From Corynebacterium tuberculostearicum (GTDB lineage: Bacteria; Actinomycetota; Actinomycetes; Mycobacteriales; Mycobacteriaceae): a DNA stretch of 64,000 bases. Positions 4,905 through 46,016 of the stretch are shown here, one piece after another; the stretch's first letter is position 1, and each line of letters begins with the position of its first letter. The position numbers and the translations under genes were made by a program. The notes under the pieces are model-generated. The model saw only the letters and a program-made list of their open reading frames with translations, searched no databases and was not told the origin of the DNA. The stretch is taken from positions 1,550,001 to 1,614,000 of the forward strand of contig NZ_CP069791.1 in assembly GCF_016894265.1 (NCBI RefSeq), read 5' to 3'.

Positions 4905-4928
4905 AGCCCTGCTTGGCGACGTCCCCCC
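4905..4928 (+). repeat. Dispersed intergenic repeat, copy A
   Basis: About 20 bases downstream of hemQ lies a sequence matching the core GCCCTGCTTGGCGACGCCCC with one difference (a T near the end). The same core recurs downstream of ruvB, the cyclophilin gene and the phosphate permease. Here it sits just before a strong hairpin terminator shared by hemQ and msrB. It is read in the same direction as hemQ. Confidence 0.75.
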
Positions 4929-4934
4929 TTAGCC

Positions 4935-4985
4935 GCGCCCCGTCACTAGCCTGCACGTTAGGCTGCTGACGGGGCGCGCTTTCTT
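4935..4985. terminator. Probable bidirectional terminator between hemQ and msrB
   Basis: An 11-base stem, GCGCCCCGTCA at 4935-4945 with TGACGGGGCGC at 4967-4977, encloses a second small stem (AGCCT/AGGCT) and is followed on the plus strand by a T-rich run. It lies between two convergent genes and can serve both. Confidence 0.8.
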
Positions 4986-4997
4986 GTGCATGCCCCC

Positions 4998-5420
4998 TTA
5001 GGCGGTGCCATCTTCTACCGGCTTTTCCTCCAAGTCCAGGCAGATGGAGTTGATGCAATAGCGCAAGTCGGTGGGGGTATCGTAGCCCTCGCCCTCAAAG
5101 ACGTGCCCCAGGTGAGATTCGCAGTTGGCGCACAGTACCTCTACGCGACGCATGCCTAGCGAATTGTCTTCGCGCTCAATGATTTTGTCCCCTGCGAGTG
5201 GGGAGAAGAAGGAAGGCCAGCCGCAGTGGGACTCAAACTTTTCCGTAGAGCGGAAAAGCTCGGTTCCACACGCGCGGCAAGAATAGACCCCCTCGGTGGT
5301 GGTATTGGTGTACTCGCCTACGTGGGGCGGCTCGGTGCCGGCTTCGCGCAGGACGTAGTATTCCTCAGGGCTTAAGCGCTGGCGCCATTCGGTATCGGCA
5401 ATGAGCTTGAAATCGGTCAT
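4998..5420 (-). CDS. msrB: Peptide-methionine (R)-S-oxide reductase
   Basis: MsrB repairs oxidised methionine (R-sulfoxide) in proteins using thioredoxin-type reductants. The 140-residue protein is full length for a stand-alone MsrB. Zinc-binding cysteines are C48/C51 (SCRACG) and C97/C100 (CANCESHLGHVF); the catalytic cysteine is C122 in RYCINS, and a further cysteine sits in SHCGWPSF. ATG start at 5420. The gene lies 9 bases downstream of the aftC-like gene on the same strand and probably belongs to its transcript. Confidence 0.97.
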   Translation of the reverse strand: MTDFKLIADTEWRQRLSPEEYYVLREAGTEPPHVGEYTNTTTEGVYSCRACGTELFRSTEKFESHCGWPSFFSPLAGDKIIEREDNSLGMRRVEVLCANCESHLGHVFEGEGYDTPTDLRYCINSICLDLEEKPVEDGTA

Positions 5421-5429
5421 GGGCCGAGT

Positions 5430-6581
5430 CTAAACCGTGCTGCGCGCGGCACGCCACCAGCCGGCGACCGTAGCGAAGATTGCGACGATAAGCAGCGCCC
5501 ATCCCGCCGTGGCCGTGAAAAAATTCATCCACCGACCAGCATCCGGGTGCGCTGTAGATGCCCAGGAAACGGGAGCCAAATAGAGAAAGGCCGCAAACCA
5601 CGCACCCGCAGAATGGAAAACCGAACGATTGAGCACAACGGTAAACATCAATGGGAATAGCCACATGGAGTAATACTGCTGGCCAAGGGAAGACAAGAAG
5701 AAGATACCCACCATGATCGCCCCGCTTGTCGTCAGTGCCCACAAGGTCGGGTCGGAGTTGCGCCAGCGTAAAAGCCCGAGAATCGCTGCGGTCGAAAGCG
5801 CGGCAAATATCAACCACACGGTCCAATACAGTCCCGCACCAAAGTCAACGTAGGCGTGGAAGCCTGCCCAGGAAGAATTGGCATAGTCACGGGTTTCTGA
5901 GAGGTAGGGCAGGAGGTTATCCACAAAGCCGCTAGCGCCCGGCACGAGCGGCCACGCTAGAAGGTTGAGAACTACCGGTACGCCAATGCCAGTCACGAGG
6001 CTGCGCCATTGCAGCTTGACCAAGGGCAGGAAGAGCAACGGCGCAAATTGCGGCTTAATGACGATGGCCAAGCCAATGACCACGCCTGCCACCCAGCCCA
6101 GCCATGGGGTGCGCTCGGCGCGCACGAAAGCCCACAAGAACACGGCCATGCATAGCAAGAGAATGCCGTTGATATTGGTAAATGCGAGCGTATTGGTCAC
6201 CGATTCCGTGACAAAGGCCAAAGCGATAGATACTGGCCACACCGCCGAAGTAAGTGTGCGGTCTACCGCAAGGGTGAGTACCGCTAGCGCTGCCACGATT
6301 GCAGCCGCGTTGGCGACGATGAATAGTCCCCGTGCCGCCGAAAAATCGATGTGCGCTAGCGGCGCGAGCAGCAGCGTCGCCCCCGGCGTATACAGGTACA
6401 GCGGGTCAACGTGGTTATAAGCCTGCTCATAGACCGGCTGGCCAGTGGACATGCGTGCCACAGCGTTATACACGGTGGTGAAATCATCCGTCGGCGTGCC
6501 ATTGCGCGCGATGATGAAGACGCGATGCACAACAAGCAGGATGGCCACGGGCCAGGCGGCGGCATTGATTCGGGAATTCAC
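5430..6581 (-). CDS. aftC: GT87 membrane arabinofuranosyltransferase, AftC-like
   Basis: A 383-residue polytopic membrane protein of the GT-C/GT87 (DUF2029) group. The early loop DDFTTVYNAVARMSTG, after the first membrane segment, holds the acidic residues expected of the active site facing the outer side, followed by roughly ten hydrophobic segments. In mycobacteria and corynebacteria the gene next to msrB encodes AftC, which adds alpha-1,3 arabinofuranose branches from decaprenyl-phosphoarabinose to cell-wall arabinan; I assign AftC from that neighbourhood plus the sequence type. Starts with GTG at 6581. GT87 enzymes are hard to tell apart by eye, so the substrate is less certain than the family. 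Confidence 0.8.
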   Translation of the reverse strand: MNSRINAAAWPVAILLVVHRVFIIARNGTPTDDFTTVYNAVARMSTGQPVYEQAYNHVDPLYLYTPGATLLLAPLAHIDFSAARGLFIVANAAAIVAALAVLTLAVDRTLTSAVWPVSIALAFVTESVTNTLAFTNINGILLLCMAVFLWAFVRAERTPWLGWVAGVVIGLAIVIKPQFAPLLFLPLVKLQWRSLVTGIGVPVVLNLLAWPLVPGASGFVDNLLPYLSETRDYANSSWAGFHAYVDFGAGLYWTVWLIFAALSTAAILGLLRWRNSDPTLWALTTSGAIMVGIFFLSSLGQQYYSMWLFPLMFTVVLNRSVFHSAGAWFAAFLYLAPVSWASTAHPDAGRWMNFFTATAGWALLIVAIFATVAGWWRAARSTV

Positions 6582-6599
6582 GGCCCCTTAGTCTACGGC

Positions 6600-7286
6600 C
6601 TAGCGGGCGCGGGAATACCGCAGAAACACCGTGCCATCGTGATCGGCCGCGACATTTTCTAACTGCATGCGGCGATGGGAATGCTCGCCCTTAAACGTCG
6701 CCATGGGAGTTTCCACGCCGGTAGATAGATGTGGGTCCAGGGTCAAATACATTTGGTCGATGGCATCGACATCTACCAACTGCCCAATCATTCCTGGCCC
6801 GCCCTCACACAGCACGCGCTTAAACCCGCGGTCCTTTAAGACAGATATGTAGTCCTGCACGGTTCCTTCGCCAGCATCGCAGACTTCCGCGCCTGTGGAT
6901 TCGATGGTCGCGATGCGCTTTGCGAGCTCTTGATCGTCCCGGCTGCTATGGGGGACTAGGAGGATGGGCGGGGTAGTAAAATCCGTGAAGAAGTCCGAGG
7001 TGATATCGAAATCAAGGCTGCGGGAAGGTACGGCAATAGGAGCCGGCCGCGAACCAACCCCGTTAGGTTTTACTCCGGAGTAGTCCTCTGCGCGCACCGT
7101 TTGCGCACCCACCAACACGACGTCTGCCCAGTTACGTAGAGCAGTAAAAAGCTGCCCGTCAGTGTCGTTTCCCATGTCCTTGGAAACGTGGTTCATGGTT
7201 GCCGAGCCGGTTAACGTGCTAACCATATTCGTGCGGACGGTGAATACATCACCGGAATCAGGGCCCAATAGCGAAGAGATATCCAT
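6600..7286 (-). CDS. RibD C-terminal / dihydrofolate-reductase-like pyrimidine reductase
   Basis: A 228-residue protein matching the reductase half of RibD, which uses NADPH on a pyrimidine intermediate of riboflavin synthesis. The deaminase half is absent. Visible features are MVSTLTGSATMNHVSKDMGNDTDG near the N-terminus, ADVVLVGAQTVRAEDYSGVKP in the middle, and the nucleotide-binding CEGGPGMIGQLVDVDAIDQMYLTLDP near residue 160-185. Mycobacteria have a similar stand-alone RibD-like protein at this position (from memory), whose true substrate is disputed, so a folate-related reductase is possible. It lies 18 bases upstream of the aftC-like gene on the same strand and probably begins that operon. 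Confidence 0.85.
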   Translation of the reverse strand: MDISSLLGPDSGDVFTVRTNMVSTLTGSATMNHVSKDMGNDTDGQLFTALRNWADVVLVGAQTVRAEDYSGVKPNGVGSRPAPIAVPSRSLDFDITSDFFTDFTTPPILLVPHSSRDDQELAKRIATIESTGAEVCDAGEGTVQDYISVLKDRGFKRVLCEGGPGMIGQLVDVDAIDQMYLTLDPHLSTGVETPMATFKGEHSHRRMQLENVAADHDGTVFLRYSRAR

Positions 7287-7357
7287 GCCTTCCCAGTCTA
7301 GTCAAGGCACCAGATGCCCAGAACGGTAAAGCGCAGGGCGCACCCCAGACGATGGGC

Positions 7358-8260: not shown

Positions 8261-8333
8261 GTCGGGACACTTTACAGGGATATAAAGAAACCCGCCCAAG
8301 CCCCTTTGGAGTGGAGCGGTGGGCGGGAAATTG

Positions 8334-8405
8334 TGGTCCTAACTGGGATTGAACCAGTGACCTTTCCGGTGTGAACGGAACGCTCTCCCACTGAGCTATA
8401 GGACC
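8334..8405 (-). tRNA. tRNA-Val (anticodon CAC)
   Basis: The minus strand gives a 72-base cloverleaf with acceptor GGTCCTA/TAGGACC, D-arm AGCTCAGTGGGAGAGC, anticodon stem TTCCG/CGGAA with loop TTCACAC (anticodon CAC), and T-loop GGTTCAATCC. No CCA is encoded. Confidence 0.95.
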
Positions 8406-8650: not shown

Positions 8651-8726
8651 GCGGATGTAGCGCAGTTGGTAGCGCATCACCTTGCCAAGGTGAGGGTCGC
8701 GAGTTCGAGTCTCGTCATCCGCTCCA
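8651..8726 (+). tRNA. tRNA-Gly (anticodon GCC), copy 1
   Basis: Cloverleaf of 73 bases plus encoded CCA: acceptor GCGGATG/CATCCGC, anticodon loop TTGCCAA (GCC) within stem CACC/GGTG, and T-loop AGTTCGAGT. Identical copies start at 8884 and 9204. Confidence 0.97.
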
Positions 8727-8773
8727 CGCTTTTCTAAGGGTTCTCCCGTGAAGAGTGGTTCTAAATGAATAAC

Positions 8774-8845
8774 GCGCGATTAGCTCAGTGGGAGAGCGCT
8801 TCCCTGACACGGAAGAGGTCACTGGTTCAATCCCAGTATCGCGCA
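8774..8845 (+). tRNA. tRNA-Val (anticodon GAC), copy 1
   Basis: 72-base cloverleaf with acceptor GCGCGAT/ATCGCGC, anticodon stem CTTCC/GGAAG with loop CTGACAC (GAC), and T-loop GGTTCAATCC. An identical copy starts at 9088. No CCA is encoded as part of a full CCA end. Confidence 0.97.
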
Positions 8846-8883
8846 CAAGGACTTTGTCCTAGAAACCGGGCCTGGTTTCGCAT

Positions 8884-8959
8884 GCGGATGTAGCGCAGTT
8901 GGTAGCGCATCACCTTGCCAAGGTGAGGGTCGCGAGTTCGAGTCTCGTCATCCGCTCCA
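8884..8959 (+). tRNA. tRNA-Gly (anticodon GCC), copy 2
   Basis: Same sequence as the copy at 8651, including the encoded CCA. It lies between tRNA-Val and tRNA-Cys. Confidence 0.97.
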
Positions 8960-8989
8960 GCACTGTATTGTGTGAGGCGGTATCGCCAC

Positions 8990-9060
8990 GGTGGAATGGC
9001 CGAGTGGTGAGGCAACGGTCTGCAAAACCGTGCACACGGGTTCGATTCCCGTTTCCACCT
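8990..9060 (+). tRNA. tRNA-Cys (anticodon GCA)
   Basis: 71-base cloverleaf with acceptor GGTGGAA/TTCCACC, anticodon loop CTGCAAA (GCA) on stem CGGT/ACCG, and T-loop GGTTCGATTCC. It is the only Cys tRNA seen in this window. Confidence 0.96.
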
Positions 9061-9087
9061 CAACTTCTTAATGCCTTCGGGCATTAA

Positions 9088-9159
9088 GCGCGATTAGCTC
9101 AGTGGGAGAGCGCTTCCCTGACACGGAAGAGGTCACTGGTTCAATCCCAGTATCGCGCA
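9088..9159 (+). tRNA. tRNA-Val (anticodon GAC), copy 2
   Basis: Identical to the copy at 8774. A short hairpin (TTAATGCC/GGCATTAA) lies in the spacer just upstream and may help processing. Confidence 0.97.
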
Positions 9160-9203
9160 CGAGGGTCCCTTTTGGGACTCTGTAGCAAACTCCGGTTTGT
9201 TGT

Positions 9204-9279
9204 GCGGATGTAGCGCAGTTGGTAGCGCATCACCTTGCCAAGGTGAGGGTCGCGAGTTCGAGTCTCGTCATCCGCTCCA
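9204..9279 (+). tRNA. tRNA-Gly (anticodon GCC), copy 3
   Basis: Identical to the copies at 8651 and 8884, with encoded CCA; the last gene of the cluster, directly before a strong terminator. Confidence 0.97.
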
Positions 9280-10980: not shown

Positions 10981-12207
10981 ATGTCTGGATTCAGCAGAAG
11001 GGGATTTCTTACCGGCGCTGCGGTATCGACCAGCGCCTTCGCGTTGGCTAGCTGTAATGACCAGGGTTCTTCCCCGGATGCTCAGGCAACGGATCGGCCG
11101 GCGCTTGCCGACGCCCTCGTGGCATTCGACGGCGACCATCAAGCGGGTATCGCTACCGCAGCGCAGGCCCACCTGAATTTGGTGGGGTTTGACCTTAAAA
11201 GGGGCGTCGACAAGCGGGGGTTTGCCAGCCTCATGAAGCTGTGGACCGAGGATGCCCGCGCGCTGTGCACGGGGGAGGCGCCGCTGGGCACGCTGGAGCC
11301 AGAAATGGTGCAACAGCCTGCCAACCTGACTATCACCTGCGGTCTAGGCGAAGAGGTTTTTAACCTGCTCGGAGTGGACAAGCCACGGTGGCTGGGAGAT
11401 GTACGCCCCTATGAGCGCGAGGAGCTGGAAGATAAGTGGGGTCAAAGCGATCTCGTCCTGCAAATCTGCTGCGATGACCCACTGATGAATACCTACGCCC
11501 TGCGGCACATGGTGCGCGCAGGCGAGCACTATGCCAGCGTGAAGTGGTTGCAGCAGGGCTTTATTAACGCCTATGGCAGCCAGGAAAAGGGCGCCACCGC
11601 GCGCAATATGTTTGGGCAAAAGGACGGCACTGTAAACCCACGCAGCGAGGAGGACTTCGCAGCCCAGGTGTGGATTGATAAGGGCCCGCATTGGGCCAAT
11701 GGGGGAACGGCGATGGTGGTGCGCCGCATCCGCATGAACGTGGATACTTGGGAAAAGCTGGATCGCTCTTCCCGCGAGAATGCTATCGGCCGCAAGCTCG
11801 ATACTGGTGCCCCGCTCACCGGCGAGGACGAATTCGACGCCGTGGATTTTGACGCGGTAGATGACTATGGACTGCCGGTTATCGATAAGAACTCGCACAT
11901 GGCGGTAGCCGCCCCGCCGGCCGATCATCCAGAGCAGCGCATCCTGCGCCGGCCGTATAACTATGAGCTGGCTCCCGATGGCAAGGATGGGCAGCTTTCC
12001 AATATTGGCCAGGTTTTCATCTGCTATCAGCAAGATCCCACCAAGCAATTCGAGCCTATCCAGGCCCGTTTGGATAAATCGGACCTGCTGAACGAGTGGT
12101 TGACTCATATTGGTTCGGCTATGTATTTCTGCCCGCCGGGCACCCTCACTGCCGATGGGCGCGAGTCATGGTGGGCAAAATCGCTCTGCGAGCATGCAGG
12201 GTTGTAG
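10981..12207 (+). CDS. DyP-type heme peroxidase with Tat signal
   Basis: A 408-residue dye-decolorising peroxidase. The N-terminus SRRGFLTG is a twin-arginine export signal ending in LASC at residues 22-25, which looks like a lipobox, so it may be a Tat-exported lipoprotein. The DyP GxxDG motif is GQKDG at 212-216, with NSHMA (His306, likely heme ligand) and ILRRPYNYEL (distal Arg near 322). EfeB-like enzymes work with iron uptake, but here the partners are CopC and PCuAC-type copper proteins, so a role in copper or envelope redox handling is inferred. Two bases separate it from the lipoprotein gene. Confidence 0.92.
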   Translation: MSGFSRRGFLTGAAVSTSAFALASCNDQGSSPDAQATDRPALADALVAFDGDHQAGIATAAQAHLNLVGFDLKRGVDKRGFASLMKLWTEDARALCTGEAPLGTLEPEMVQQPANLTITCGLGEEVFNLLGVDKPRWLGDVRPYEREELEDKWGQSDLVLQICCDDPLMNTYALRHMVRAGEHYASVKWLQQGFINAYGSQEKGATARNMFGQKDGTVNPRSEEDFAAQVWIDKGPHWANGGTAMVVRRIRMNVDTWEKLDRSSRENAIGRKLDTGAPLTGEDEFDAVDFDAVDDYGLPVIDKNSHMAVAAPPADHPEQRILRRPYNYELAPDGKDGQLSNIGQVFICYQQDPTKQFEPIQARLDKSDLLNEWLTHIGSAMYFCPPGTLTADGRESWWAKSLCEHAGL

Positions 12208-15571: not shown

Positions 15572-16516
15572 ATGTGGGACAAAGAAGACCTCTCCGCGGC
15601 AGGGTACCTCGCGGGGTGGAAGGTGGTGCGCCGTCTGCCCGAGCCCATAGCGCGCACGCTTTTTCGCTGGGGTGCGGACTACGCAAGCAGCAACGGTCGC
15701 GGAATGGAAGGCTTGCGCCGCAACCTAGCGCGAGTGGTGGGCCCGGAAAACGTTACCCGCGCGTTGGTGCGCGATTCCGTGCGCTCCTATATGCGCTATT
15801 GGATGGAGGCGTTCCGCCTGCCAGCCATCCACGGCGATGCCGGGTTGCATGAGCGCTTGCTCAGCGGCTTGGAAGGCCTCGAGCATTTTGATGCTTCGGC
15901 TCAATCCGGGCGCGGCACCATTTTGGCGTTGCCGCATTCCGGCAATTGGGACATGGCGGGTGTCTTCCTCGTTGGCCATTATGGGCAGTTCACCACCGTT
16001 GCGGAGCGCCTTAAGCCCGCAGTGCTTTTCGACGCCTTTGTGGACTACCGCGAAACCCTTGGCTTTGAGGTTCTTCCCCTCACCGGCGGCGAAGCCTCGC
16101 CTTTTGCTCGCCTCAAAGAGGTGCTGGAAGCCGGTGGCGTGGTATGCCTGTTGGCTGAGCGCGACCTGACCCGAAGCGGCGTTACCGTGGATTTCATGGG
16201 GGAAGAGGCTAATATGGCCGCAGGCCCCGCGCAGCTTGCTATAGAGACCGGCGCCGCCCTGCACGTGGTGCACTCGTGGTTTGAAAGCGAGGGCTGGGGG
16301 CTCTCTGTGTCTCCTGAGCTCGAGGTAACGGATCTGCAGGAGACAGCTCAGCGCATGGCCGATGGCTTCGCTGCTAATATCCGCCGCCACCCAGAGGATT
16401 GGCATATGCTGCAGCCGCAGTGGAATGTGGACATTGAGCGGCGTCGGCAAGCGCGGGCGGGCAAAGAAGCCCGCAATGCTCGCCACACTGGGCCATCGCA
16501 GGAAGGGGAGAGCTAG
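15572..16516 (+). CDS. Phosphatidylinositol mannoside acyltransferase, PatA-like
   Basis: A 314-residue LpxL/HtrB-type acyltransferase. In mycobacteria PatA at this position acylates the 6-position of the mannose added by PimA. The catalytic H-x4-D motif is HSGNWD near residue 122-127; another family element is LAERDLTRSGVTVDFMGEEANMAAGPAQLA at about 195-225, where the Glu-Arg pair is conserved. The ATG at 15572 follows AGGAGG at 15556. It overlaps the pimA start by one base (TAGTG), so these enzymes are made together. Confidence 0.9.
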   Translation: MWDKEDLSAAGYLAGWKVVRRLPEPIARTLFRWGADYASSNGRGMEGLRRNLARVVGPENVTRALVRDSVRSYMRYWMEAFRLPAIHGDAGLHERLLSGLEGLEHFDASAQSGRGTILALPHSGNWDMAGVFLVGHYGQFTTVAERLKPAVLFDAFVDYRETLGFEVLPLTGGEASPFARLKEVLEAGGVVCLLAERDLTRSGVTVDFMGEEANMAAGPAQLAIETGAALHVVHSWFESEGWGLSVSPELEVTDLQETAQRMADGFAANIRRHPEDWHMLQPQWNVDIERRRQARAGKEARNARHTGPSQEGES

Positions 16517-17619
16517 TGCGCATAGGAATCGTATGCCCCTACTCCTTCGATGAACCAGGCGGAGTTCAAGCCCATATCCTTGATCTAGCCACAGTTTTCA
16601 TTGAGCAAGGGCACCATGTACAGGTCATTGGCCCCGCTGCGGAATCCACCCAGTTGCCGGATTTCGTAATCAAGGGAGGGCCGGCTTTCCCCATTGCGTA
16701 TAACGGTTCGGTGGCGCGCCTGTCCGTGGGACCCCACGTCACACGCAAGGTAAAGCAATTCATCAAGGAGGGCGACTTCGATGTCTTGCACATCCATGAG
16801 CCTAACTCCCCGAGCTTTTCCATGACCGCGTTGGCCGTGGCCCAAGGCCCGCTGGTGGCGACGTATCACGCTTCCGCGTCGAGCTCCTTGGTGTTGACTT
16901 TGGCCAAACCTTTCCTCGTTCCCTTTTTGGAAAAGATCCGCGGCGGCATCGCGGTATCCGATATGGCGCGGCGGTGGCAGGTGGAGCAATTGGGCGGAGA
17001 CCCGGTCCTTATTCCCAACGGCGTGGATACGTCGGTTTACGCGCAGGCTCGGCGCCGCAGCCCGGCTAAGGCCCCCGGCGATCCCCTGGAAGTTGTCTTC
17101 TTGGGGCGGTTGGATGAACCGCGCAAGGGCCTCGATATCCTACTGAGCGCGCTCCGCCAAGTACACCACGATATCCGCGTGACCATCATGGGCGGTGGTC
17201 GCGCCCGCGAGGTCGAGGGCGTGGATTTTGTAGGCCGGGTAAGCGACGCCGAAAAGGCGGAAATCCTGGGCCGCGCCGATGTCTACGTGGCCCCAAATAC
17301 CGGCGGCGAAAGCTTCGGCATCGTGCTGGTAGAGGCTATGGCGGCCGGCGCGGCTGTTGTTGCCTCTGACCTCGAGGCTTTCCGTGCGGTGTGCAATGCC
17401 GATTCCGACGAGGTTGCCGGCGCGCTGTTCCGCAACGAAGACAGCGAGGATCTGGCTCGTGTCCTCAACGAGGTGCTTGATGACGCCGAGTATCGGGCCC
17501 AGTTGGTGCGCAATGGCGTCCAACGCGCCAGCACCTATGACTGGGACCATGTAGCGGCGGCCGTGATGCAGGTCTACGAGACTGTCCAAGACGGCACCAA
17601 GGTGAGGGTAAAGCGTTGA
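16516..17619 (+). CDS. pimA: Phosphatidyl-myo-inositol mannosyltransferase PimA
   Basis: Transfers the first mannose from GDP-mannose to phosphatidylinositol on the cytosolic membrane face. The 367-residue GT4 enzyme begins RIGIVCPYSFDEPGGVQAH, containing the Gly-Gly loop for acceptor binding, has YHAS at about residue 117, and carries the donor E-x7-E motif in GGESFGIVLVEAMAAG near 256-270. GTG start at 16516 overlaps the acyltransferase stop; GGAAGGGGAG precedes it. Its own stop overlaps the next ATG by one base. Confidence 0.96.
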   Translation: MRIGIVCPYSFDEPGGVQAHILDLATVFIEQGHHVQVIGPAAESTQLPDFVIKGGPAFPIAYNGSVARLSVGPHVTRKVKQFIKEGDFDVLHIHEPNSPSFSMTALAVAQGPLVATYHASASSSLVLTLAKPFLVPFLEKIRGGIAVSDMARRWQVEQLGGDPVLIPNGVDTSVYAQARRRSPAKAPGDPLEVVFLGRLDEPRKGLDILLSALRQVHHDIRVTIMGGGRAREVEGVDFVGRVSDAEKAEILGRADVYVAPNTGGESFGIVLVEAMAAGAAVVASDLEAFRAVCNADSDEVAGALFRNEDSEDLARVLNEVLDDAEYRAQLVRNGVQRASTYDWDHVAAAVMQVYETVQDGTKVRVKR

Positions 17620-18080
17620 TGACCATTGAAATCGCCCTAGTCCTCTTCCTACTTATCATCGTAGGTTTGTGGGCGCTTTTTACCGCCCAGCGGCTTAACT
17701 CGCTGCACATCCGCACTGATGCCTCGCTGGCCCAGCTGCAGGCGGCACTTGACCGCAGGGCAGCGGTGACAGCGGCGGTCGCACCATCGCTTGCGGCGCT
17801 AGCTCAGCGAGCAGAGTCTACTGAGCTCTATCAAGGACACTTCGAACCGCGCACGATGGCCGAGCGGGAACTATCTGCCGCCATAGTGAGGGAGTTTCCC
17901 GCGGACCGTCGCCCTGCCGCGCTTGCCGACGCCGAGGGCCGCATCCAACTTGCCCACCGCTTCTACAACGAGGCGGTCAGCGACACTCGCGCGCTGCGCC
18001 TGCGCCCTGCGGTACGCCTCTTTCATCTGGGTGGCACCGCAAAACTGCCGGAATATTTTGATTATATGCTGGCCGAGTAG
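17619..18080 (+). CDS. LemA-like membrane-anchored protein
   Basis: A 153-residue protein with one N-terminal membrane helix (about 4-25) followed by a helical soluble part. RLNSLHIRTDASLAQLQAALDRRAAV and RFYNEAVSDTRALR resemble the LemA core helices, where FYN is a typical element. As I recall, mycobacteria have a larger protein after pimA that adds a NUDIX domain; here no NUDIX part is present. ATG at 17619 overlaps the pimA stop (TGATG). Its function is unknown; membership of the PIM operon is the only hint. Confidence 0.7.
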   Translation: MTIEIALVLFLLIIVGLWALFTAQRLNSLHIRTDASLAQLQAALDRRAAVTAAVAPSLAALAQRAESTELYQGHFEPRTMAERELSAAIVREFPADRRPAALADAEGRIQLAHRFYNEAVSDTRALRLRPAVRLFHLGGTAKLPEYFDYMLAE

Positions 18081-22127: not shown

Positions 22128-22745
22128 ATGATTGCTGCACTGCGTGGAGAGGTAATCCATATTGGACTCGACCATGGGGTTATCGACTGTGCAGGCGTGG
22201 GGTACAAGTTTTTAGCTACCCCAAAAACGCTGGGCACCTTGCGCCGCGGGGAACAAGCCACGGTTCTTACTAACTTGGTGGTCAAGGAAGATTCTCTGAC
22301 TCTCTATGGCTTTAGCGCTGATGAGGATCGCGAGATGTTCCATGTGCTGCAGTCTGTGTCCGGCCTAGGTCCCAAGCTGGCCCTAGCGGCGCTGTCCGTA
22401 ATGGGGGCAGGGGAGCTTGCTGCGGCAATTGGTGGGGAAGATGTGAAGGCGCTGCAGTCTATCCCGGGCGTCGGCAAGCGTATGGCCCAACGCTTGGCGC
22501 TGGAGCTGAAAGATAAGGTAGCGGCCTTTGCACCAAGCGAGCCCGCCGCCGCAGGCTCCGTTGATACCGCCGTCGCGCCGAACGGTGGTGCCGTGGTAGA
22601 AAGCGTGACTGAGGCACTCATTGGCCTCGGGTTTACCGATAAGGGAGCGCGTCCCGTGGTGGAATCTGCCTACGCGGAAAATCCCGATGCCGATACGTCC
22701 ACTCTCTTGCGTGCAGCGTTGGCGCAGCTGGGCAAGAAGAAATAA
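22128..22745 (+). CDS. ruvA: Holliday junction DNA helicase subunit RuvA
   Basis: Binds four-way junctions and loads the RuvB motor. The 205-residue protein has an N-terminal OB domain (MIAALRGEVIHIG), then two helix-hairpin-helix motifs, of which VSGLGPKLALAALS and IPGVGKRMAQRLALELKDK are clear at about 73-125, and a C-terminal RuvB-contact domain (ALIGLGFTDKGARPVVESA). GGAAGGA lies about 12 bases before the ATG. It follows ruvC by 34 bases. Confidence 0.96.
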   Translation: MIAALRGEVIHIGLDHGVIDCAGVGYKFLATPKTLGTLRRGEQATVLTNLVVKEDSLTLYGFSADEDREMFHVLQSVSGLGPKLALAALSVMGAGELAAAIGGEDVKALQSIPGVGKRMAQRLALELKDKVAAFAPSEPAAAGSVDTAVAPNGGAVVESVTEALIGLGFTDKGARPVVESAYAENPDADTSTLLRAALAQLGKKK

Positions 22746-23855: not shown

Positions 23856-23877
23856 TAGCCTGCTTGGCGATGCCCCC
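23856..23877 (+). repeat. Dispersed intergenic repeat, copy B
   Basis: Ten bases after the ruvB stop, this copy differs from the common core GCCCTGCTTGGCGACGCCCC by loss of one C and one C-to-T change. The flanks GGGG (23851) and CCCCC/GGGG (about 23873-23884) could form hairpins. Same orientation as ruvB. Confidence 0.7.
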
Positions 23878-24491: not shown

Positions 24492-26408
24492 TTGTCCGCA
24501 AAAACCCGTGGCGCTATGAAAAATAGCAAACGCCAATGGCCGAAGCGCGCGCTCGCGCTCTTCGTGCTCATTGTGGTTGTTATCTATGCGCTTATCTTTT
24601 TAACTGGTAGCCGTCAAAGCACCCCAAAGCTTGGCATCGACTTGCAGGGCGGTACCCGCGTAACGCTGGCACCGCAAGGCGAGGAACCCACCCAAGACCA
24701 GCTCAAGCAAGCACGCAACATTTTGGAACAGCGTGTTAACGGCATGGGTGTTTCTGGTTCTGAGGTTGTCATCAACGGCAATACCCTGGTCATTACCGTG
24801 CCAGGTGAAGACGCCTCCCAGGCACAGGCCGTGGGCCAGACCTCGCAGCTGTTCTTCCGTCCGGTGGCTAAGCCCTCCATGCCGGATATGGAAAAGCTCA
24901 ATAAGGTGCTGGAAGATATGGCCAATCGCTGGGTGAAGTACGACGTACTCAGCGCAGACGAGGCCAATAAGCAGATGGAACAGATGACCCAGTCCATCGC
25001 TCAGCAAGAAGCACAGATGACTGGCAAGGAGCCAAAGAAACAGAAGGCTCCTAAGGTCAGCGCCAAGCCGCTTGAGCAGCCAAGCAACTCCATTGAGCAG
25101 ACTAAGCGCCGTGATGAAGTCACGGAGATGCTCCTGAAGGACCGTCAGTCCGAGGACCCGACCACCCAGGCAGCAGCCTCCGCGCTGATGACCTGCCAGG
25201 GCAGCAGCGACCCACTGGCCGGCGCCGATGATCCTGCCAAGCCATTTGTTACTTGTGACTACTCCAACGGCAATCCGTACGTTCTGGAGCCAGCACCGCT
25301 TCTCAATGGCATCAAGGACGAAAACGGCACCCGTCTCACCGGTAACGAGATCGATACCAATTCTCCGATCGAAGGCGGCCTGAACGGTCAATCCGGTCAG
25401 ATGGAGATCAACTTCTCCTTCAAGACTGGTGATGGCCCGAACGGTTCTCAGACCTGGGCGGACCTGACCCAGGAACACTTAAAGGACCAGGTAGCCATCA
25501 CCCTTGACTCTGGGGTTATTTCCGCACCGTTCATTCAGGGCGCAACCCCAGTTGGTTCTGCTACCTCCATTACTGGTGACTTTAGCCAGGAAGAGGCACA
25601 GAGCCTGGCAAATAACCTAAAGTATGGCGCACTGCCGTTGTCCTTCGCCGGTGAAAATGGCGAGCCGGGTGGCACCGTAGAGTCCATTCCGCCAACACTG
25701 GGTAAGGCTGCTCTGCAGGCCGGCCTCATTGCAGGCCTTGTTGGCCTGGTACTCGTGATGGCGTACTCGCTGTACTACTTCCGCGCGCTGGCCGGCGTAT
25801 CCCTTATCTTCCTCATTGCCTCTGGCCTCCTGACCTATGGCTCCCTGGTTCTGCTGGGCCGCTGGATCGGTTACTCGCTGGACCTTTCCGGCATCGCCGG
25901 TCTGGTCATCGGTGTGGGCGCAACCGCTGACTCCTTCGTGGTCTACTACGAGCGCATCAAGGACGAGCTCCTCGAGGGACGCACCTTCCGCTCCGCTACG
26001 CAAAAGGCGTGGGAGCGCGCTCGTGCCACCATTGTGACCGGTAACGCGGTGACCCTGATTGGCTCTGTTGTGGTCTACTTCCTCGCCATCGGTGAGGTGA
26101 AGGGCTTCGCCTTTACCATGGGCCTGACCACCGTCTTCGACCTGATCGTATCCTTCTTGGTCATGGCGCCGCTGATGCAGATGGTCGGCCGACGTCCGGC
26201 TGCCGCTAAACCTTCGATGAATGGCCTCGGCGGTATCTACGCACTGGTGGAAGAGCGCCGTGAACGCGGCTACTTTGGCTCGGGACGTCGTCAAGCGAAC
26301 GCTGCTGAATCCGCGAGTGCAAAGGAGCCAGCCACCAAGGAAACGGCAGGAGATTCTGCCGCAGGAACCGCACGTCCCGTAGATGCTGCGGAAGATGAGG
26401 AGAAATAA
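24492..26408 (+). CDS. secD: Protein translocase subunit SecD
   Basis: Uses the proton motive force to pull exported proteins across the membrane with SecF. The 638-residue protein has one N-terminal helix (about 19-37), the LGIDLQGGTRVTL motif, a large extracytoplasmic P1 domain with an acidic, Gln-rich insertion (about 130-235), and five C-terminal helices including SGIAGLVIGVGATADSFVVYYERIKDE. The tail after residue 590 is Ala/Glu-rich. TTG at 24492 is chosen because AGGAG lies seven bases upstream; an ATG nine codons later is an alternative. secF follows after two bases. Confidence 0.96.
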   Translation: MSAKTRGAMKNSKRQWPKRALALFVLIVVVIYALIFLTGSRQSTPKLGIDLQGGTRVTLAPQGEEPTQDQLKQARNILEQRVNGMGVSGSEVVINGNTLVITVPGEDASQAQAVGQTSQLFFRPVAKPSMPDMEKLNKVLEDMANRWVKYDVLSADEANKQMEQMTQSIAQQEAQMTGKEPKKQKAPKVSAKPLEQPSNSIEQTKRRDEVTEMLLKDRQSEDPTTQAAASALMTCQGSSDPLAGADDPAKPFVTCDYSNGNPYVLEPAPLLNGIKDENGTRLTGNEIDTNSPIEGGLNGQSGQMEINFSFKTGDGPNGSQTWADLTQEHLKDQVAITLDSGVISAPFIQGATPVGSATSITGDFSQEEAQSLANNLKYGALPLSFAGENGEPGGTVESIPPTLGKAALQAGLIAGLVGLVLVMAYSLYYFRALAGVSLIFLIASGLLTYGSLVLLGRWIGYSLDLSGIAGLVIGVGATADSFVVYYERIKDELLEGRTFRSATQKAWERARATIVTGNAVTLIGSVVVYFLAIGEVKGFAFTMGLTTVFDLIVSFLVMAPLMQMVGRRPAAAKPSMNGLGGIYALVEERRERGYFGSGRRQANAAESASAKEPATKETAGDSAAGTARPVDAAEDEEK

Positions 26409-29345: not shown

Positions 29346-29891
29346 ATGAGTTCGCACTACGAATCAGCAGCACAAGCACTCAAGGACAAGGTTCGCCTCG
29401 TTCAAGACTTCCCCGAGGAGGGCATCCTCTTTGAGGACCTCACCCCGGTCTTGGCGGATCCAGAGGCATTTCGCACCGTAGTGGACGGCTTGGCGGCCGC
29501 CTGCGAGGAATTGGGCGCAGATATGATTGGCGGCCTCGACGCCCGTGGATTCCTCCTCGGCTCGGCCGTCGCCTACAAGTTGGGCCTAGGCATCTTGGCC
29601 ATCCGCAAGAAGGGCAAGCTTCCCCCACCGGTATATACCGAAGAATATGAGCTGGAGTATGGCTCCGCGGCGCTGGAGATTCCAGCCAGCGGCGTTGACA
29701 TCAAGGGCAAGCGCGTGGTGCTTGTCGACGACGTCCTGGCCACCGGTGGCACCCTCCACGGTGCCAAGCTTTTGCTTGAGTCAGCAGGTGCCGAAGTCGC
29801 TGGCAATGTGGTGGTGCTGGAAGTCAAGGGGCTCAACGGTCGTGAGCGTTTATCCGGCCCACCGCTCATTGTGTTGAATGCCACAGACTAA
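29346..29891 (+). CDS. apt: Adenine phosphoribosyltransferase
   Basis: Salvages adenine to AMP using PRPP. The 181-residue protein has the N-terminal [42 protein letters not shown] and the PRPP-binding motif [13 protein letters not shown] near residue 124-136. ATG at 29346 follows AAGGAAG. In many actinobacteria apt sits directly before rel, linking purine salvage and (p)ppGpp synthesis, as here. Confidence 0.96.
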
Positions 29892-35980: not shown

Positions 35981-36002
35981 GGGGGCGTCGCCAAGCAGGG
36001 CT
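35981..36002 (-). repeat. Dispersed intergenic repeat, copy C
   Basis: On the minus strand it reads the full core GCCCTGCTTGGCGACGCCCC without a mismatch, 11 bases downstream of the cyclophilin stop and in that gene's orientation. A CCCCC/GGGGG mini-hairpin lies 25 bases further on. Confidence 0.8.
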
Positions 36003-38239: not shown

Positions 38240-39529
38240 GTGAGTAAAAAGAAGCAGTTCCAAGCCCTGTCCGCCCCCAAAGGTGTCCCAGACTATTTCC
38301 CACCGCAGTCGGCCGCATTCTATAAGGTGCGCCAGACCATGGTGGAGCAGGCACATCTCTCCGGCTTCCAGCACATTGAGCTGCCCATTTTCGAAGACAC
38401 CGCGCTTTTCGCCCGTGGCGTGGGCGAGTCCACCGACGTGGTGTCTAAGGAGATGTACACCTTTGCTGATCGCGGCGACCGTTCCGTTACTTTGCGCCCA
38501 GAGGGTACCGCTGGCGTGATGCGCTCGGTCATTGAGCACAACCTGGACCGCGGCCAGCTGCCCGTGAAGCTCAACTATTTTGGTCCGTTCTTCCGCTATG
38601 AACGCCCCCAGGCTGGCCGCTACCGCCAGCTACAGCAGGTCGGTGTAGAGGCTATTGGCGTGGACGACCCTGCGCTAGACGCCGAGGTCATCGCCTTGGC
38701 GGATCGTTCCTTCCGCGCGCTGGGGCTTAGTGGCTTCCGCCTTGAGCTCACCAGCTTGGGCGATCGCAATTGCCGCCCGGCTTACCGCGAGAAGCTGCAG
38801 GAATTCCTCTTTAAGCTCGACTTGGATGAAGAGACCCGTCACCGTGCAGAGATCAACCCTTTGCGCGTGCTGGATGACAAGCGCCCGGAGATCCAGGAGC
38901 AGCTTGCCGACGCCCCCTTGATGCTCGACCACCTCAATGACGAATGCCGCGAGCACTTCGAAACTGTCACCGGCATGCTGGATGATATGGGCGTAGCCTA
39001 CGAGATTAATCCGCGCATGGTCCGCGGCTTGGACTACTACACCAAGACCTGCTTCGAGTTCGTCCATGACGGACTCGGCGCGCAGTCCGGCATCGGTGGC
39101 GGTGGCCGCTACGACGGGCTGATGGCCCAGCTAGGCGGTCAAGACCTATCCGGTATCGGCTACGGTCTGGGTGTCGACCGCGCCCTGCTGGCGCTGGAGG
39201 CTGAGGGCATCACCCTCGAAGGCGTGGAGTCCCGCGTGGACGTCTTTGGCGTTGCACTGGGTAGCACCGCCAAGCGCACGATGACCACCCTGATCAATGA
39301 TCTCCGCAAGGCTGGAATCTCTGCTGATATGTCCTTTGGAGACCGTGGCCTGAAGGGCGCGATGAAGGGTGCCGACCGCGCCGGTGCACGCTTCGCGCTG
39401 GTCTTGGGCGAGCAGGAGCTAGAAAATGGCACGGTTGCGCTCAAGGACCTTGCCGCCCATGAGCAGCACGACGTAAAGGTTTCTGACCTAGTGTCCGTAC
39501 TTGCTCGGGAAATCAACGGCGAGGCCTAG
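38240..39529 (+). CDS. hisS: Histidyl-tRNA synthetase
   Basis: Charges tRNA-His. The 429-residue class II enzyme has motif 1 region with [25 protein letters not shown], motif 2 [23 protein letters not shown], the histidine motifs [13 protein letters not shown] and GGGRYDGL, motif 3 [15 protein letters not shown], and a C-terminal anticodon-binding domain. GTG start at 38240. Ends without a strong terminator before the convergent TetR gene. Confidence 0.97.
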
Positions 39530-42382: not shown

Positions 42383-42384
42383 AA

Positions 42385-43497: not shown

Positions 43498-43572
43498 GCT
43501 TGCCTTTCAATGCGGTGCACAGGAGTAAAGATAGACGCAGTGTCGACTGCGGGAAAGCCGACTGCGGGAGAA

Positions 43573-44295
43573 TTATTCCCATTCTAGAGCATCAAAAAGT
43601 GCCGGTAGATCGGCCGGTGCAACGAGGCGCAGGGGCCTCTCAGTGACCTTGCCGTGCTCCGTGATGACCGCTGCGCACGGGCGATGTCCTTGGTTGTCGG
43701 TTTCTGAAAGGGCGTCCACCGTTTCCTGCACGCTTACTGTGCGGGCAAGAAAGATAGCGCGATCACTGGGTTCTTGATATTCCACAATGTCCGCGATGTC
43801 CGCAGCATCGAGCACGTGATTATCGCTGAGGTCCCCGGCTACCCATCGCGCAATGGTGTTGGTGGTTAGCAAAGCGGTGAAGCGGCCCTCATCGTAGATG
43901 GGGATTTGAGAGAAGTCCTTATCCTTTATGACGTCAAATGCTTCCATGATTGATGTGGCAGACGTCAAGGTAAATACCTTTTGCGGCTGCAAAACCTGGA
44001 GGGTGGCGGGCGGGGATACCACAATGTCTCGGAGAGCGGAGATCTGCTTGACCACTGCTTCGTGCGGTTCAGCTAGGGGCTCTGATTTGTAGTAGCGCCC
44101 GTGGGCAATGGCATTGCGAAGGTTAGAAAAATCTTTAAGCGCTTCGGCTTGTTTACTGGAAAGCACGTGCTTGTCTCGTGCCCTGTCTACTATCCACCAG
44201 AAGGAATCTGAGTTCTCAGCGTTGAGAGCCGAGCGCAAGTGTTGTTCTATGTCGTTGAATGCGGCCAGGAATGCAGTAGCTCGATGCGCGGTCAT
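43573..44295 (-). CDS. HEPN-like / CBS-domain fusion protein
   Basis: A 240-residue protein with two parts. Residues 1-95 are helical and contain FSNLRNAIAHGRYY, in which R60-N61-A-I-A-H65 fits the R-x4-H signature (often R-N-x3-H) of HEPN domains, many of which are RNases. Residues about 98-235 form a CBS pair: VFTLTSATSIMEAFDVIKDKDFSQIPIYDEGRFTALLTTNTIARWVAG and then RTVSVQETVDALSETDNQGHRPCAAVITEHGKVTERPLRLV, which usually binds adenine nucleotides. ATG at 44295, with TACACT seven bases upstream and no ribosome binding site, so it may be leaderless. Role unknown; a nucleotide-sensing RNA-binding or RNase protein is an inference. Confidence 0.7.
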   Translation of the reverse strand: MTAHRATAFLAAFNDIEQHLRSALNAENSDSFWWIVDRARDKHVLSSKQAEALKDFSNLRNAIAHGRYYKSEPLAEPHEAVVKQISALRDIVVSPPATLQVLQPQKVFTLTSATSIMEAFDVIKDKDFSQIPIYDEGRFTALLTTNTIARWVAGDLSDNHVLDAADIADIVEYQEPSDRAIFLARTVSVQETVDALSETDNQGHRPCAAVITEHGKVTERPLRLVAPADLPALFDALEWE

Positions 44296-44418
44296 ATGGG
44301 CCAGTGTAGAGAAGGGGGGTGTTCCTATATAGGTTGTCAACCTCGCGGGTGGAGAAATCGGGGGCGGATTCTCTCTACGGGGTTGTTTGGTCGTGTGGTT
44401 TTCGGGCATGCCTGCTAG

Positions 44419-44440
44419 CCGACTGGGTTTTCCCAGTCGG
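44419..44440. terminator. Hairpin at the end of the IS110 transposase gene
   Basis: A perfect 9-base stem CCGACTGGG/CCCAGTCGG with a TTTT loop lies 19 bases past the transposase stop. It may end transposase transcription or mark the right end of the element. Confidence 0.7.
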
Positions 44441-44458
44441 CTGTTTCGTTCTTGGTGT

Positions 44459-45667
44459 TTAGGCTGCGATTCCTTCCTGTTGTAAGGCGGGATCGCGGTA
44501 GCGCTCGTGGTTGCGCATCATGGCGTAGAGGACGTTGAGCCGTCTGCGGGCTAGTGCCACTACTGCGGCGTTGTGTCTCTTGCCATCACGGCGCTTTCGT
44601 TCATAGAATTGCCGGGAACGCTCGTGGAATCTGATGGATGCAAAAGATGATTGCCATAGGGCGTTCTTTAATTTTTTATTGCCGGCACGGTTCAGTGAGT
44701 TCGACATGATCGAGGTTCCGGACTGATTCGTTCGGGGCGACAAACCAGCGTAAGAGGCCAAGTGCCCAGCTGACGGAAAGTCGGACATGTCGCCCGCGGT
44801 CATGAGAATTTGTGCTGCCGTCTTTGGTCCGATTCCTGGCATGGATAGCAGGATTTGAGTGTGGGGGATGTCGTTGATGAGCTCGATGACTTCCTGCTCG
44901 ATTTGTTTGCGATGTTCGAGTTTTAAGAGTGCGTCTTTCGCCGACATTGCTATGCCCATTTCGGCATAGTGCGCACCTGCAATGGTGACTGTTTGCTCAG
45001 AGATAGCAGCGAATATGGCATCGAGGACAGGTTCGGGATTGCGTGCCTTATATCGTCGAGCAAAGGCAGCTGCCTTGGCCTTACCTAGGCGCTTTACCTT
45101 GGTCGGTCCACCGTAGCGCGCAAGTAGGTGCAGAACCCACTTGCGGTGGATTATCTGACCGCGAAGGGCCTGTTCGAATTGCGGGTAGCAGCCTACTAGT
45201 GCACTTCGAATCTGATTGATGAGCCTGGTGTAGGACCGCGCTAAGTCTTCGTCGATACCGTTGAGGACCTTCAACTGGAGGAAAGCTTCTTCGACACGGT
45301 CGACGCTGCGGAGGGACTCCGGAAGGTTCTTTGCAGCGTGGGCAATGATATAGGCGTCCCGGATATCAGTTTTGGCATTGCCAGCGTGGATGCGTGAGAG
45401 TTGACGCATAGCCAAACCGGGAAGGTAGCGCACGTCGATTCCGATATCTTGAGCAACTGCGACAGTTAGTCGACCAATGTTATTTGGCTGGTCCACGACG
45501 ACAAGGACTTTGTGGTCGTGTGCGCTGAACGTTGAAAACAGTGTGCGCAGGGATTTTTCGTTTTGGTTGATGCGCTTAGATAGCACCTGGGTGCCGTCGA
45601 TATCTAAGACGCAAGCGTGGTGAAAATATTTACCGACGTCCATGCCGATGACATAGTCGTAGGTCAT
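44459..45667 (-). CDS. IS110-family transposase (DEDD recombinase)
   Basis: A 402-residue transposase that cuts and joins DNA as an RNA-guided recombinase in this family. The N-terminal RuvC-like DEDD domain has D10 (GMDVGKYFHHACVLD), a second acidic position at D59 (VVVDQPNNIG, where Glu is more usual), and D101/D104 (AKTDIRDAYIIAHAA). The C-terminal Tnp_20 domain has SMPGIGPKTAAQILMTAGDMSDFPSAGHLASYAGLSPRTNQSG with the catalytic serine region. Full length and apparently intact. ATG at 45667 with CTAGGAGG just upstream. Confidence 0.95.
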   Translation of the reverse strand: MTYDYVIGMDVGKYFHHACVLDIDGTQVLSKRINQNEKSLRTLFSTFSAHDHKVLVVVDQPNNIGRLTVAVAQDIGIDVRYLPGLAMRQLSRIHAGNAKTDIRDAYIIAHAAKNLPESLRSVDRVEEAFLQLKVLNGIDEDLARSYTRLINQIRSALVGCYPQFEQALRGQIIHRKWVLHLLARYGGPTKVKRLGKAKAAAFARRYKARNPEPVLDAIFAAISEQTVTIAGAHYAEMGIAMSAKDALLKLEHRKQIEQEVIELINDIPHTQILLSMPGIGPKTAAQILMTAGDMSDFPSAGHLASYAGLSPRTNQSGTSIMSNSLNRAGNKKLKNALWQSSFASIRFHERSRQFYERKRRDGKRHNAAVVALARRRLNVLYAMMRNHERYRDPALQQEGIAA

Positions 45668-45689
45668 GCTAGACCTCCTAGCGAATTGA

Positions 45690-45990
45690 ATGAGTATGGG
45701 ACTTATTTCATCGCTGGTGGTCGGACATACTTCACGCTGGCATCCACATTACTTTGAGACTTCGCACATTCTGTGCGGGTCAGGTTCCTATTAGCAGTCT
45801 GGAGTATGTCACTGCCTTCGGTGGCATCACCCCCCGGATCATTTTCAGACAGGGACGAAAACAAGCCATACCGAAGCCAGCGACTAGTTCCACTGCCACA
45901 AGGCAGAAGGAACGCAGATAAACATAACCTGCCCCAGCATGGGGCTAGGAGTACGAATCCTGGGCCCCTTCAAGCGGAACTGCCAACAAC
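45690..45990 (-). ncRNA. Candidate IS110 bridge RNA region
   Basis: The space before the transposase start (read on the minus strand) has no gene but many hairpins: CGCAC/GTGCG at about 45764-45778, TGCC/GGCA at about 45812-45826, GTTCC-CTGCC/GGCAG-GGAAC at about 45887-45912, and GCCCC/GGGGC at about 45931-45945 with an overlapping GGGG-TAGGA/TCCT-CCCC alternative. In the IS621 type the bridge RNA is encoded at this place. The exact ends and the guide loops cannot be set by eye. Confidence 0.5.
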
Positions 45991-45995
45991 GTAAT

Positions 45996-46016
45996 GGGGC
46001 GTCGCCAAGCAGGGCA
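45996..46016 (-). repeat. Dispersed intergenic repeat, copy D
   Basis: On the minus strand it reads the core GCCCTGCTTGGCGACGCCCC without a mismatch, about 100 bases downstream of the phosphate permease stop, beyond its terminator. It borders the left end of the IS110 element. Together with the candidate bridge RNA and the pit terminator it accounts for most of the 45668-46119 gene-free stretch. Confidence 0.8.

Follow-up and report, generated by a model that had tools for sequence, protein, structure and literature searches.

To our knowledge, uptake-sequence biology has been described from two Gram-negative families only, and we know of no Gram-positive genus in which sequence-selective natural transformation was reported earlier. 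The DNA uptake sequence (DUS) of the Neisseriaceae is a short, non-palindromic and over-represented word that occurs in clade dialects, i.e., in variants a few bases apart that track phylogeny (PMC3630211). The USS of the Pasteurellaceae is present in hundreds of copies or more, and one of its orientations is commoner in reading frames (PMC2346458); in Haemophilus influenzae, inverted pairs of the USS often form terminators (PMC5217627). In Micrococcus luteus transformation requires comEC and tad genes, and actinobacteria are described as often having tad together with comEA/comEC (PMC4322843); the terms 'uptake sequence' and 'sequence-specific' were not found in the main text of that article. 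Corynebacterium appears in PMC5217627 with CRISPR-related motif pairs only, in three species, and none of the matches listed (titles and abstract starts) described an uptake motif or natural transformation for this genus. One or more of the 11-mers were found in the text of 111 articles, of which the 25 titles listed concerned other topics.

Here we describe a motif found in a 64-kb stretch of DNA (the window) from a 2.43-Mb genome of the Corynebacterium tuberculostearicum group (G000). Its 11-base core across dialects is GCTTGNCGAYG, followed in G000 by C/T-C-C-C. It resembles the DUS in being a short, non-palindromic, over-represented word with variants that differ by few bases and follow phylogeny, but the word is another one and the phylum is Actinomycetota. 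Neisseria has a ComP-type receptor and its own pilus, whereas Corynebacterium has a Tad/Flp locus and an uptake preference that is predicted. As with the USS, there are hundreds of copies and one orientation is commoner in reading frames (55 sense versus 31 antisense), although the words differ and close inverted pairs, unlike those of H. influenzae, are rare: 3 of 190 gaps between sites were below 100 bases, and an inverted pair was present in one of these (1/190 gaps). With M. luteus, a member of the same phylum, Corynebacterium shares comEA-comEC and genes of the tadA-tadB-tadC-flp-tadE/G type (PMC4322843).

The motif recurs beyond chance

The sequence-only reading had reported four copies of a 20-base repeat in the window, two of them perfect. 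All four are there, with 1, 3, 0 and 0 mismatches, and they belong to a genome-wide motif, GCTTGNCGACG(C/T)CCC, whose word shows no self-complementarity on inspection. Chance recurrence was ruled out, as that reading had supposed: allowing up to 3 mismatches, the 20-mer is matched five times in the window (shuffled sequence, 0.03 on average) and 99 times in the whole genome (46 on the forward and 53 on the reverse strand; backwards control, 0), and the 11-base core has 530 copies in G000 against 7 for its backwards control (about 75-fold), with no strand bias. The copies in the window are listed below, together with the state of the orthologous place in G006, a genome of the sister clade in which the tenth core base is T (T dialect) instead of C (C form).

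4906..4925, + strand: reported copy 1, 1 mismatch, core GCTTGGCGACG at 4911-4921; intergenic, sense, after hemQ; unalignable to G006
11103..11113, + strand: core copy in the Dyp-peroxidase gene (10981-12207), sense; T dialect in G006
11205..11215, - strand: core copy in the Dyp-peroxidase gene, antisense; T dialect in G006; 20-mer match at 11201-11220 with 3 mismatches
16442..16452, - strand: core copy in an acyltransferase gene, antisense; no site in G006
17921..17931, + strand: core copy in ORF 17619-18080, sense; no site in G006
22469..22479, - strand: core copy in ruvA, antisense; still C in G006, alone among the window's shared C copies
23857..23876, + strand: reported copy 2, 3 mismatches, after ruvB; core GCTTGGCGATG, T dialect; no site in G006
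26286..26296, - strand: core copy in secD, antisense; no site in G006
29720..29730, + strand: core copy in apt, sense; T dialect in G006
35982..36001, - strand: reported copy 3, perfect 20-mer; intergenic, sense, after a peptidyl-prolyl isomerase-like gene; unalignable to G006
38902..38912, + strand: core copy in hisS, sense; T dialect in G006
45996..46015, - strand: reported copy 4, perfect 20-mer; intergenic, sense, after a phosphate-transporter-like gene; T dialect in G006
51388..51398, + strand: core copy in ORF 51026-52240, sense; no site in G006
52850..52860, - strand: core copy in ORF 52392-53675, antisense; no site in G006
56326..56336, - strand: T-dialect copy GCTTGACGATG in ORF 53777-56461, antisense; G006 likewise T
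59122..59132, - strand: core copy between genes, antisense to the preceding gene; unalignable to G006
63947..63957, + strand: core copy in ORF 63129-63998, sense; T dialect in G006

The match at 11201-11220 (- strand) is the only one in the window (up to 3 mismatches) beyond the four reported. Concerning the genes named as neighbours of these four, hemQ and ruvB matched above the NCBIfam cut-offs, and the ppi- and pit-like genes matched below the cut-off only.

Most copies lie within genes

In a 464-kb sample of G000, with gene calls from a simple codon-usage script, 86 of 103 core copies were coding (55 sense, 31 antisense) and 17 were counted as intergenic, one of which (window position 11103) actually sits within gene 10981-12207. 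The core density was 0.23 per kb inside genes and 0.20 outside, and 76 of the 86 coding copies shared one frame, with GNC as a codon. When 20-mer copies were analyzed, likewise with gene calls from the script (n = 30, i.e., 29 with at most 2 mismatches and one with 3), 23 were coding (12 sense, 11 antisense) and 7 were between genes, 6 of these 7 after a gene and in sense. Hence, the description of the repeat as intergenic, 3′ of a gene and in sense is right for the four copies, but it does not extend to a rule. Copies are in fact spread roughly evenly through coding DNA and with roughly random orientation, yet the core is found 530 times against 7 for the control, so that this placement counts against a 3′ element and not against the repeat itself.

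Two dialects within the genus

The C form was the main form, with at least 100 copies, in 102 of 151 Corynebacterium genomes; the one-base T dialect, GCTTGNCGATG, was the main form in 9 (330-754 copies) and was weak in one (G073), and 39 genomes had neither form at 100 copies. This split was made by combining the C- and T-form counts by hand; with the C form alone, 103 genomes had at least 100 copies, 44 had at most 38 and 4 were in between. The forward fraction across these 103 genomes was 0.49995, and the highest copy number in Corynebacterium genomes other than G000 was 916. In 140 genomes from 30 other genera of the family the C form (14-mer) had at most 10 copies, which is the background level. 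Few copies underlie the dialect labels given to named loci in the tree, and the T labels for spheniscorum and MAG S11A depend on two relaxed sites each.

When sites shared by sister clades of differing dialect were compared, 19 of 20 differed at exactly the dialect base, as against 46 of 158 comparable background bases, all drawn from the window (P = 1e-8). The 20 sites pool three stretches: the comEC locus (6/6, scored by the majority among five loci on each side, with one T among the five of the C clade at two sites), the tad locus (6/6, three versus two genomes, with one C-clade genome lacking the site at two of them) and the window (7/8, G000 versus G006). Left out, as not starting from C, were one T site of the window and two tad sites at which G000 has T; at one of these two tad sites G004 has C. 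The presence of individual sites often differs between the sister clades, and 10 of the 11 sites present in G006 only are T. In the dominant sense frame the tenth core base takes the third position of an Asp codon (GAC/GAT), and therefore the switch between C and T is silent there.

Plasmids and phages

Six plasmids of C-dialect species (173.7 kb), the host dialect being that of other strains of the same species, carried no C-form copy, whereas 37.8 would be expected at the chromosomal density of G000; one T-form copy was present. Recent arrival alone could explain the missing motif on plasmids. The phages BFK20 and phi673 had no C-form copies, in a count made without the dialect of their hosts, and 24 kb of the window matched nothing in a phage search.

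Competence genes in carrier genomes

The comEC gene was present in 151/151 Corynebacterium genomes, and an ATPase of the T2SSE family (TadA type) scored above the cut-off in 145/151. Near full-length comEA, comEC and tad genes were seen in 19 of the 20 genomes examined. C. phoceense (G137) has lost the greater part of comEA and of tadC as well as part of comEC, and its T sites seem partly decayed, with a near-miss ratio of 2.8 (worked out by hand); since G142 has a higher ratio (3.4, a figure that includes its 105 C copies), this decay signal is weak. Furthermore, comEA, comEC and the tad genes were found in 7/7 of the genomes examined that have fewer than 100 copies of each dialect, so that the machinery does not discriminate or predict the motif. 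Short ComEC frames were counted in 89/102 genomes with the C-form motif versus 15/44 without it, where the latter include six mainly-T genomes and the weak-T G073 and the statistics ignore kinship.

No column of the ComEA, ComEC or Tad proteins tracked the dialect better than those of neighbouring control genes. Among 30 taxa of one clade (G137 dropped for comEA and comEC), dialect-tracking columns numbered 3 in ComEA, 0 in ComEC and 0-3 in six neighbouring genes (3 in rsfS). Among 36 motif-bearing rows, with G137, G073, G010 and G098 dropped, they numbered 0-2 in each of seven Tad-locus proteins and 1-3 in three neighbours.

Discussion

The motif is probably a DNA uptake sequence (DUS) with dialects. 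Hundreds of copies are found in coding and intergenic DNA and on both strands; the C form is absent from the plasmids and phages examined, as would suit a chromosomal word that is rare on DNA not spread by transformation; the dialects are clade-specific, and the transformation machinery is present in carrier genomes, although it is not discriminating. Close inverted pairs at terminators, a frequent but non-defining trait of a DUS, are rare here. The suggestion of a protein-binding site, made from the first four copies, fits if the protein is a sequence-specific DNA uptake factor, as we propose. In this model, competent corynebacteria would import DNA through a Tad/Flp competence pilus, ComEA and ComEC, and some component of that uptake machine would favour motif-bearing DNA. 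DNA of kin would thereby enter and recombine at a higher rate than other DNA, so that mutations that create the word would be copied back to chromosomes and accumulate (molecular drive), and a shift in the base that the receptor prefers at the tenth position (C or T) would gradually re-write the sites. We lean, with some reserve, towards the wider proposal that Corynebacterium undergoes sequence-selective transformation, in which the Tad/Flp competence machine reads GCTTGNCGAYG and the C/T dialects limit gene exchange between sister groups, e.g., between tuberculostearicum and accolens/macginleyi.

Other roles have to be weighed against uptake. The motif is unlikely to be a Chi-like site that halts degradation by a recombination nuclease (AdnAB type), starts recombination and marks the chromosome as self. 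Chi is also a chromosome-wide over-represented, species-specific word that varies among species; the density of the motif is near that known to us for E. coli Chi, its C form is missing on the plasmids and phages examined, and PDDEXK_1 domains occur in two adjacent long frames of the genome (1077 and 1061 aa), which we take to be AdnA/AdnB-like. However, Chi sites are strongly oriented, and those known to us are shorter than the 11-base core, whereas the motif has no bias relative to replication (53/103 and 48/99 sites on one strand, with replichores placed coarsely by GC skew). The RecC family was found in 0/61 genomes by a search that detected the E. coli control, and we know of no use of Chi by AdnAB. 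Recognition by a nucleoid-associated or segregation protein, with the sites maintained by selection on chromosome structure, would agree with copies across the chromosome and on both strands, with the lack of the C form on the examined plasmids, and with a dialect switch as co-evolution of protein and site. We nevertheless find it improbable, because the selective re-writing of hundreds of sites one by one, without a recombination drive, seems implausible, because 39/151 genomes have neither form at 100 copies, and because individual sites often come and go between sister clades.

It is quite improbable that the motif is HIP1-like or linked to methylation and was spread by biased mutation or repair. 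The many genic and intergenic copies would fit, and a C/T difference at a CpG is what deamination of methylated C would produce, but the T form is itself enriched and occurs where the sister has no site (10/11 G006-only sites), so that it is not simply a decay product; in addition, the plasmids examined from such hosts are without the C form, and the motif is non-palindromic, whereas HIP1 is a palindromic octamer. The first reading, an intergenic 3′ element such as a REP-like repeat, part of a terminator or an RNA motif, has become very improbable. It accounts for the two perfect 20-mers and five more of the 30 that are intergenic, 6 of the 7 being in sense after a gene. The REP-like (REP/BIME) version was rejected, since the word is not self-complementary, the sampled copies are mainly inside genes (23/30 for the 20-mer) and the strands are used equally; a 3′-UTR RNA motif or terminator is contradicted by copies that are mainly genic and alike on both strands, and by an Rfam search of the window in which no family but tRNAs reached the threshold. 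Finally, an artefact of codon usage, with Leu-X-Asp and Val-X-Lys written in favoured codons, is hardly credible: the single frame of 76/86 coding copies is as it would predict, but the intergenic density is similar, Leu CTT is a minor codon (11 per 1000, versus 34 for CTG), both forms stay below 100 copies in 39 genomes of the genus, and dialects exist.

If the motif is an uptake sequence, it is genome-wide evidence for natural transformability with self-recognition, at present or in the past, across much of a large Gram-positive genus to which common species of human skin belong, and uptake-sequence biology would no longer be confined to two Gram-negative families. With sister clades one base apart in dialect, it becomes directly testable which component of a Tad competence machine recognizes DNA, and whether such dialects form a barrier to sexual exchange. 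Genetics in laboratory corynebacteria would then gain a practical handle, as donor DNA could be given the matching word.

Minor forms of the motif

In G014 and G041 no strong second motif emerged from a de novo search. Other lineages may use a third form, YCGACGCCACY. T relicts number 52-74 copies in the group of the window, and they are not unique to it, as the C genomes G036, G051 and G085 also hold 52-67 T copies. The T-dialect core of reported copy 2 (23857..23876) is possibly such a relict.

The repeat is dispersed through the chromosome, within genes and between them

The 20-mer was present at the four places noted from the sequence alone, 3′ of hemQ, ruvB, ppi and pit, with 1, 3, 0 and 0 mismatches, respectively, and one additional copy with 3 mismatches was found in the window; the shuffled window gave a mean of 0.03 matches. 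The whole genome (G000, a single contig of 2.43 Mb) contained 99 matches at 3 mismatches or fewer; the same pattern read reversed (backwards control) gave none. G000 is assigned to the C. tuberculostearicum group by its ComEC, whose identity to records of that species reaches 98%. On loosening the pattern, the constant part of the motif was found to be GCTTGNCGACG, with 530 copies in G000 (267 and 263 by strand) vs 7 for the backwards control. In a sample of 464 kb of G000 (20 stretches of 20 kb plus the window), GCTTGCCGAC had the top z-score among the 10-mers found eight times or more (56 vs 3.1 expected), and the profile derived from 103 core copies was [C/T]GCTTGNCGACG[C/T]CCCC. The genome-wide motif, GCTTGNCGACGCCCC, is termed here the C form, and its one-base variant, with T at the tenth base of the core GCTTGNCGAYG, the T form; the copy 3′ of ruvB has the T form.

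The sequence-only reading placed the repeat downstream of genes and in their sense direction, and this did not hold genome-wide: as assigned with a simple gene caller, 55 of the 103 core copies lay within genes in sense, 31 within genes in antisense and 17 between genes, and core density in the 464 kb was alike within genes and outside. The 20-mer itself was coding in 23 of 30 copies (29 with at most 2 mismatches and one with 3). In 76 of the 86 coding core copies GNC was read as a codon, i.e., in one frame. The orientation of the motif was even in both halves of the G000 chromosome, as set coarsely by the GC skew of the sampled stretches. An Rfam search of the window gave no match other than tRNAs:

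8651-9276, + strand, six tandem tRNA genes (Rfam scores 66-71)
8334-8405, - strand, a seventh tRNA gene (Rfam)

Two dialects in the genus Corynebacterium

The C-form counts were bimodal in a census of 151 Corynebacterium genomes (G numbers), with at least 100 copies in 103 genomes, at most 38 in 44, and 4 genomes in between. In a family-wide sample the C form was enriched in 7 of 11 Corynebacterium genomes, and in 140 genomes of 30 other genera the C-form 14-mer reached at most 10 copies, similar to the backwards controls. G006, a sister-clade genome, carries only 59 C-form copies, and its leading 10-mer was GCTTGCCGAT (58 vs 4.9 expected in 400 kb), i.e., GCTTGNCGATG(CCCC). The T form, searched for within Corynebacterium, was present at 330-754 copies in nine genomes (G006, G053, G093, G104, G110, G137, G142, G143 and G150), at 106 in G073, at 102 in the C-rich G011, and at 74 or fewer in the remaining census genomes, so that either form reached at least 100 copies in 112 of the 151 genomes and neither did in 39.

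At least five C/T changes were required on a FastTree tree of 90 loci built from seven neighbouring proteins. T was found in the accolens/macginleyi clade and in the C. phoceense-G053, G143 and G093 lineages (the C. phocae locus, in the C. phoceense-G053 lineage, had neither form), and C in the striatum/minutissimum clade, the tuberculostearicum clade and most other labelled loci. T copies also persist, at 52-74 per genome, in G000 and its five apparent nearest kin, as judged from the length of the ComEC frame and the TadA score. A switch from T to C in the past is a possible reason, but 52-67 are present in G036, G051 and G085 as well.

The dialects differ site by site between sister clades

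When the comEC loci of five tuberculostearicum-group and five accolens/macginleyi-group records were aligned, six common sites were found; at each, the majority base at the same position was C in the first group and T in the second, and nearly all other bases of the site were unchanged. These loci were 73% identical in one measured pair and also carry sites found in one clade only. The tad locus provided six further common sites with the switch, and of eight C sites of the window shared with G006, seven had T in G006. Pooled, 19 of 20 sites had switched, vs T at 46 of 158 CGACG contexts outside sites in the window-G006 comparison (P 1e-8). In the dominant sense frame the switching base is the third base of an Asp codon (GAC/GAT), and the dialect change is therefore silent in that frame, which plausibly explains the variation at this position.

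Competence machinery

All 151 Corynebacterium genomes carry comEC (PF03772), and 145 a T2SSE-family ATPase above the cut-off. In G000, comEA and comEC occur together; the genes for a TadA-type ATPase, TadB/C-like proteins, a Flp-sized pilin (DUF4244) and a TadE/G-like protein are grouped in a compact locus. The comEA, comEC and tad-locus set was near full length by profile in 19 of the 20 genomes read in detail. In the exception, C. phoceense (G137), most of comEA and of tadC and part of comEC are gone; this genome carries 330 T sites with a near-miss ratio of 2.8, vs 1.5-2.2 in seven other T genomes, and the ratio of G142 is higher still (3.4). The machinery was retained in all seven genomes examined that have neither dialect at 100 copies, hence it alone does not predict the word. 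Three columns of ComEA discriminated between the dialects, and the control gene rsfS had as many (3); each Tad protein had 0-2 such columns, not exceeding the 1-3 of their neighbours.

Some further features of these loci were observed. In the G137 stretch L071 (7895-9089) an apparent deletion accounts for the losses in comEA and comEC and also took nearly the whole of holA, leaving only its end at this locus; holA is expected to be essential. The ComEC of stretch L055 (7555-8967) has only 470 aa and matches the Pfam Competence domain alone; in several other genomes the frame at comEC is open for 650-890 aa. Near comEC in L055 (10987-13153), a putative Dam-type adenine methyltransferase gene, recognized by eye, lies with an unassigned neighbour, and relatives of both recur at the comEC locus of G014, G053 and G143.

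Proposed biased DNA uptake and its alternatives

Six plasmids of C-dialect species (173.7 kb, including two of C. tuberculostearicum CTNIH20), whose hosts' dialect was taken from one locus in one or more other strains of the same species, carried the T form once and the C form not at all, whereas 37.8 C-form copies are predicted at the chromosomal density of G000. Phages BFK20 and phi673, taken irrespective of host dialect, had no C-form copies. The motif probably acts as a DNA uptake sequence: DNA import would be biased toward it, and the imported DNA would then recombine into the chromosome. Such a process would jointly account for the copy number, the lack of strand bias, the genic copies, the absence from plasmids and the concerted dialect change. 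Under it, the motif would be alike in behaviour to the uptake sequences of the Neisseriaceae, for which PMC3630211 describes eight dialects that track phylogeny and serve as barriers. PMC4322843 states that transformation of Micrococcus luteus requires comEC and tad genes, and that actinobacteria frequently combine tad with comEA/comEC.

A Chi site is disfavoured, although AdnAB-like frames are present, given the balanced orientation of the motif and the finding of RecC in none of 61 genomes. A nucleoid-protein site, or a word produced by methylation or a HIP1-like drive, accounts less well than biased uptake for the pattern of dialects and for the shortage of the motif on plasmids. Among the titles listed by searches of the open-licence literature, none describes such a motif in Corynebacterium.

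Other enriched words

The related word YCGACGCCACY, possibly a third dialect, was enriched in G010 (288), G015 (355), G134 (243) and G147 (170), with controls of 22-50, and was also high in some C-dialect genomes (G103, 215; G019, 185; G139, 161). In G010 (stretches L200-L204, L063 and L064) T-rich bases lie ahead of it. G132, with neither dialect at 100 copies, carries a dispersed palindrome, GATGCACGTGCATC (L205-L209, L171 and L172), and TGCACGTGC had 26 matches there on both strands vs 1.4 expected in 135 kb. Single-genome variants were GCGTANCGACG, with 9 copies in 35 kb of G016 (L061 and L062), and TCTTGNCGACG, with 7 copies in 35 kb of G031 (L073 and L074).
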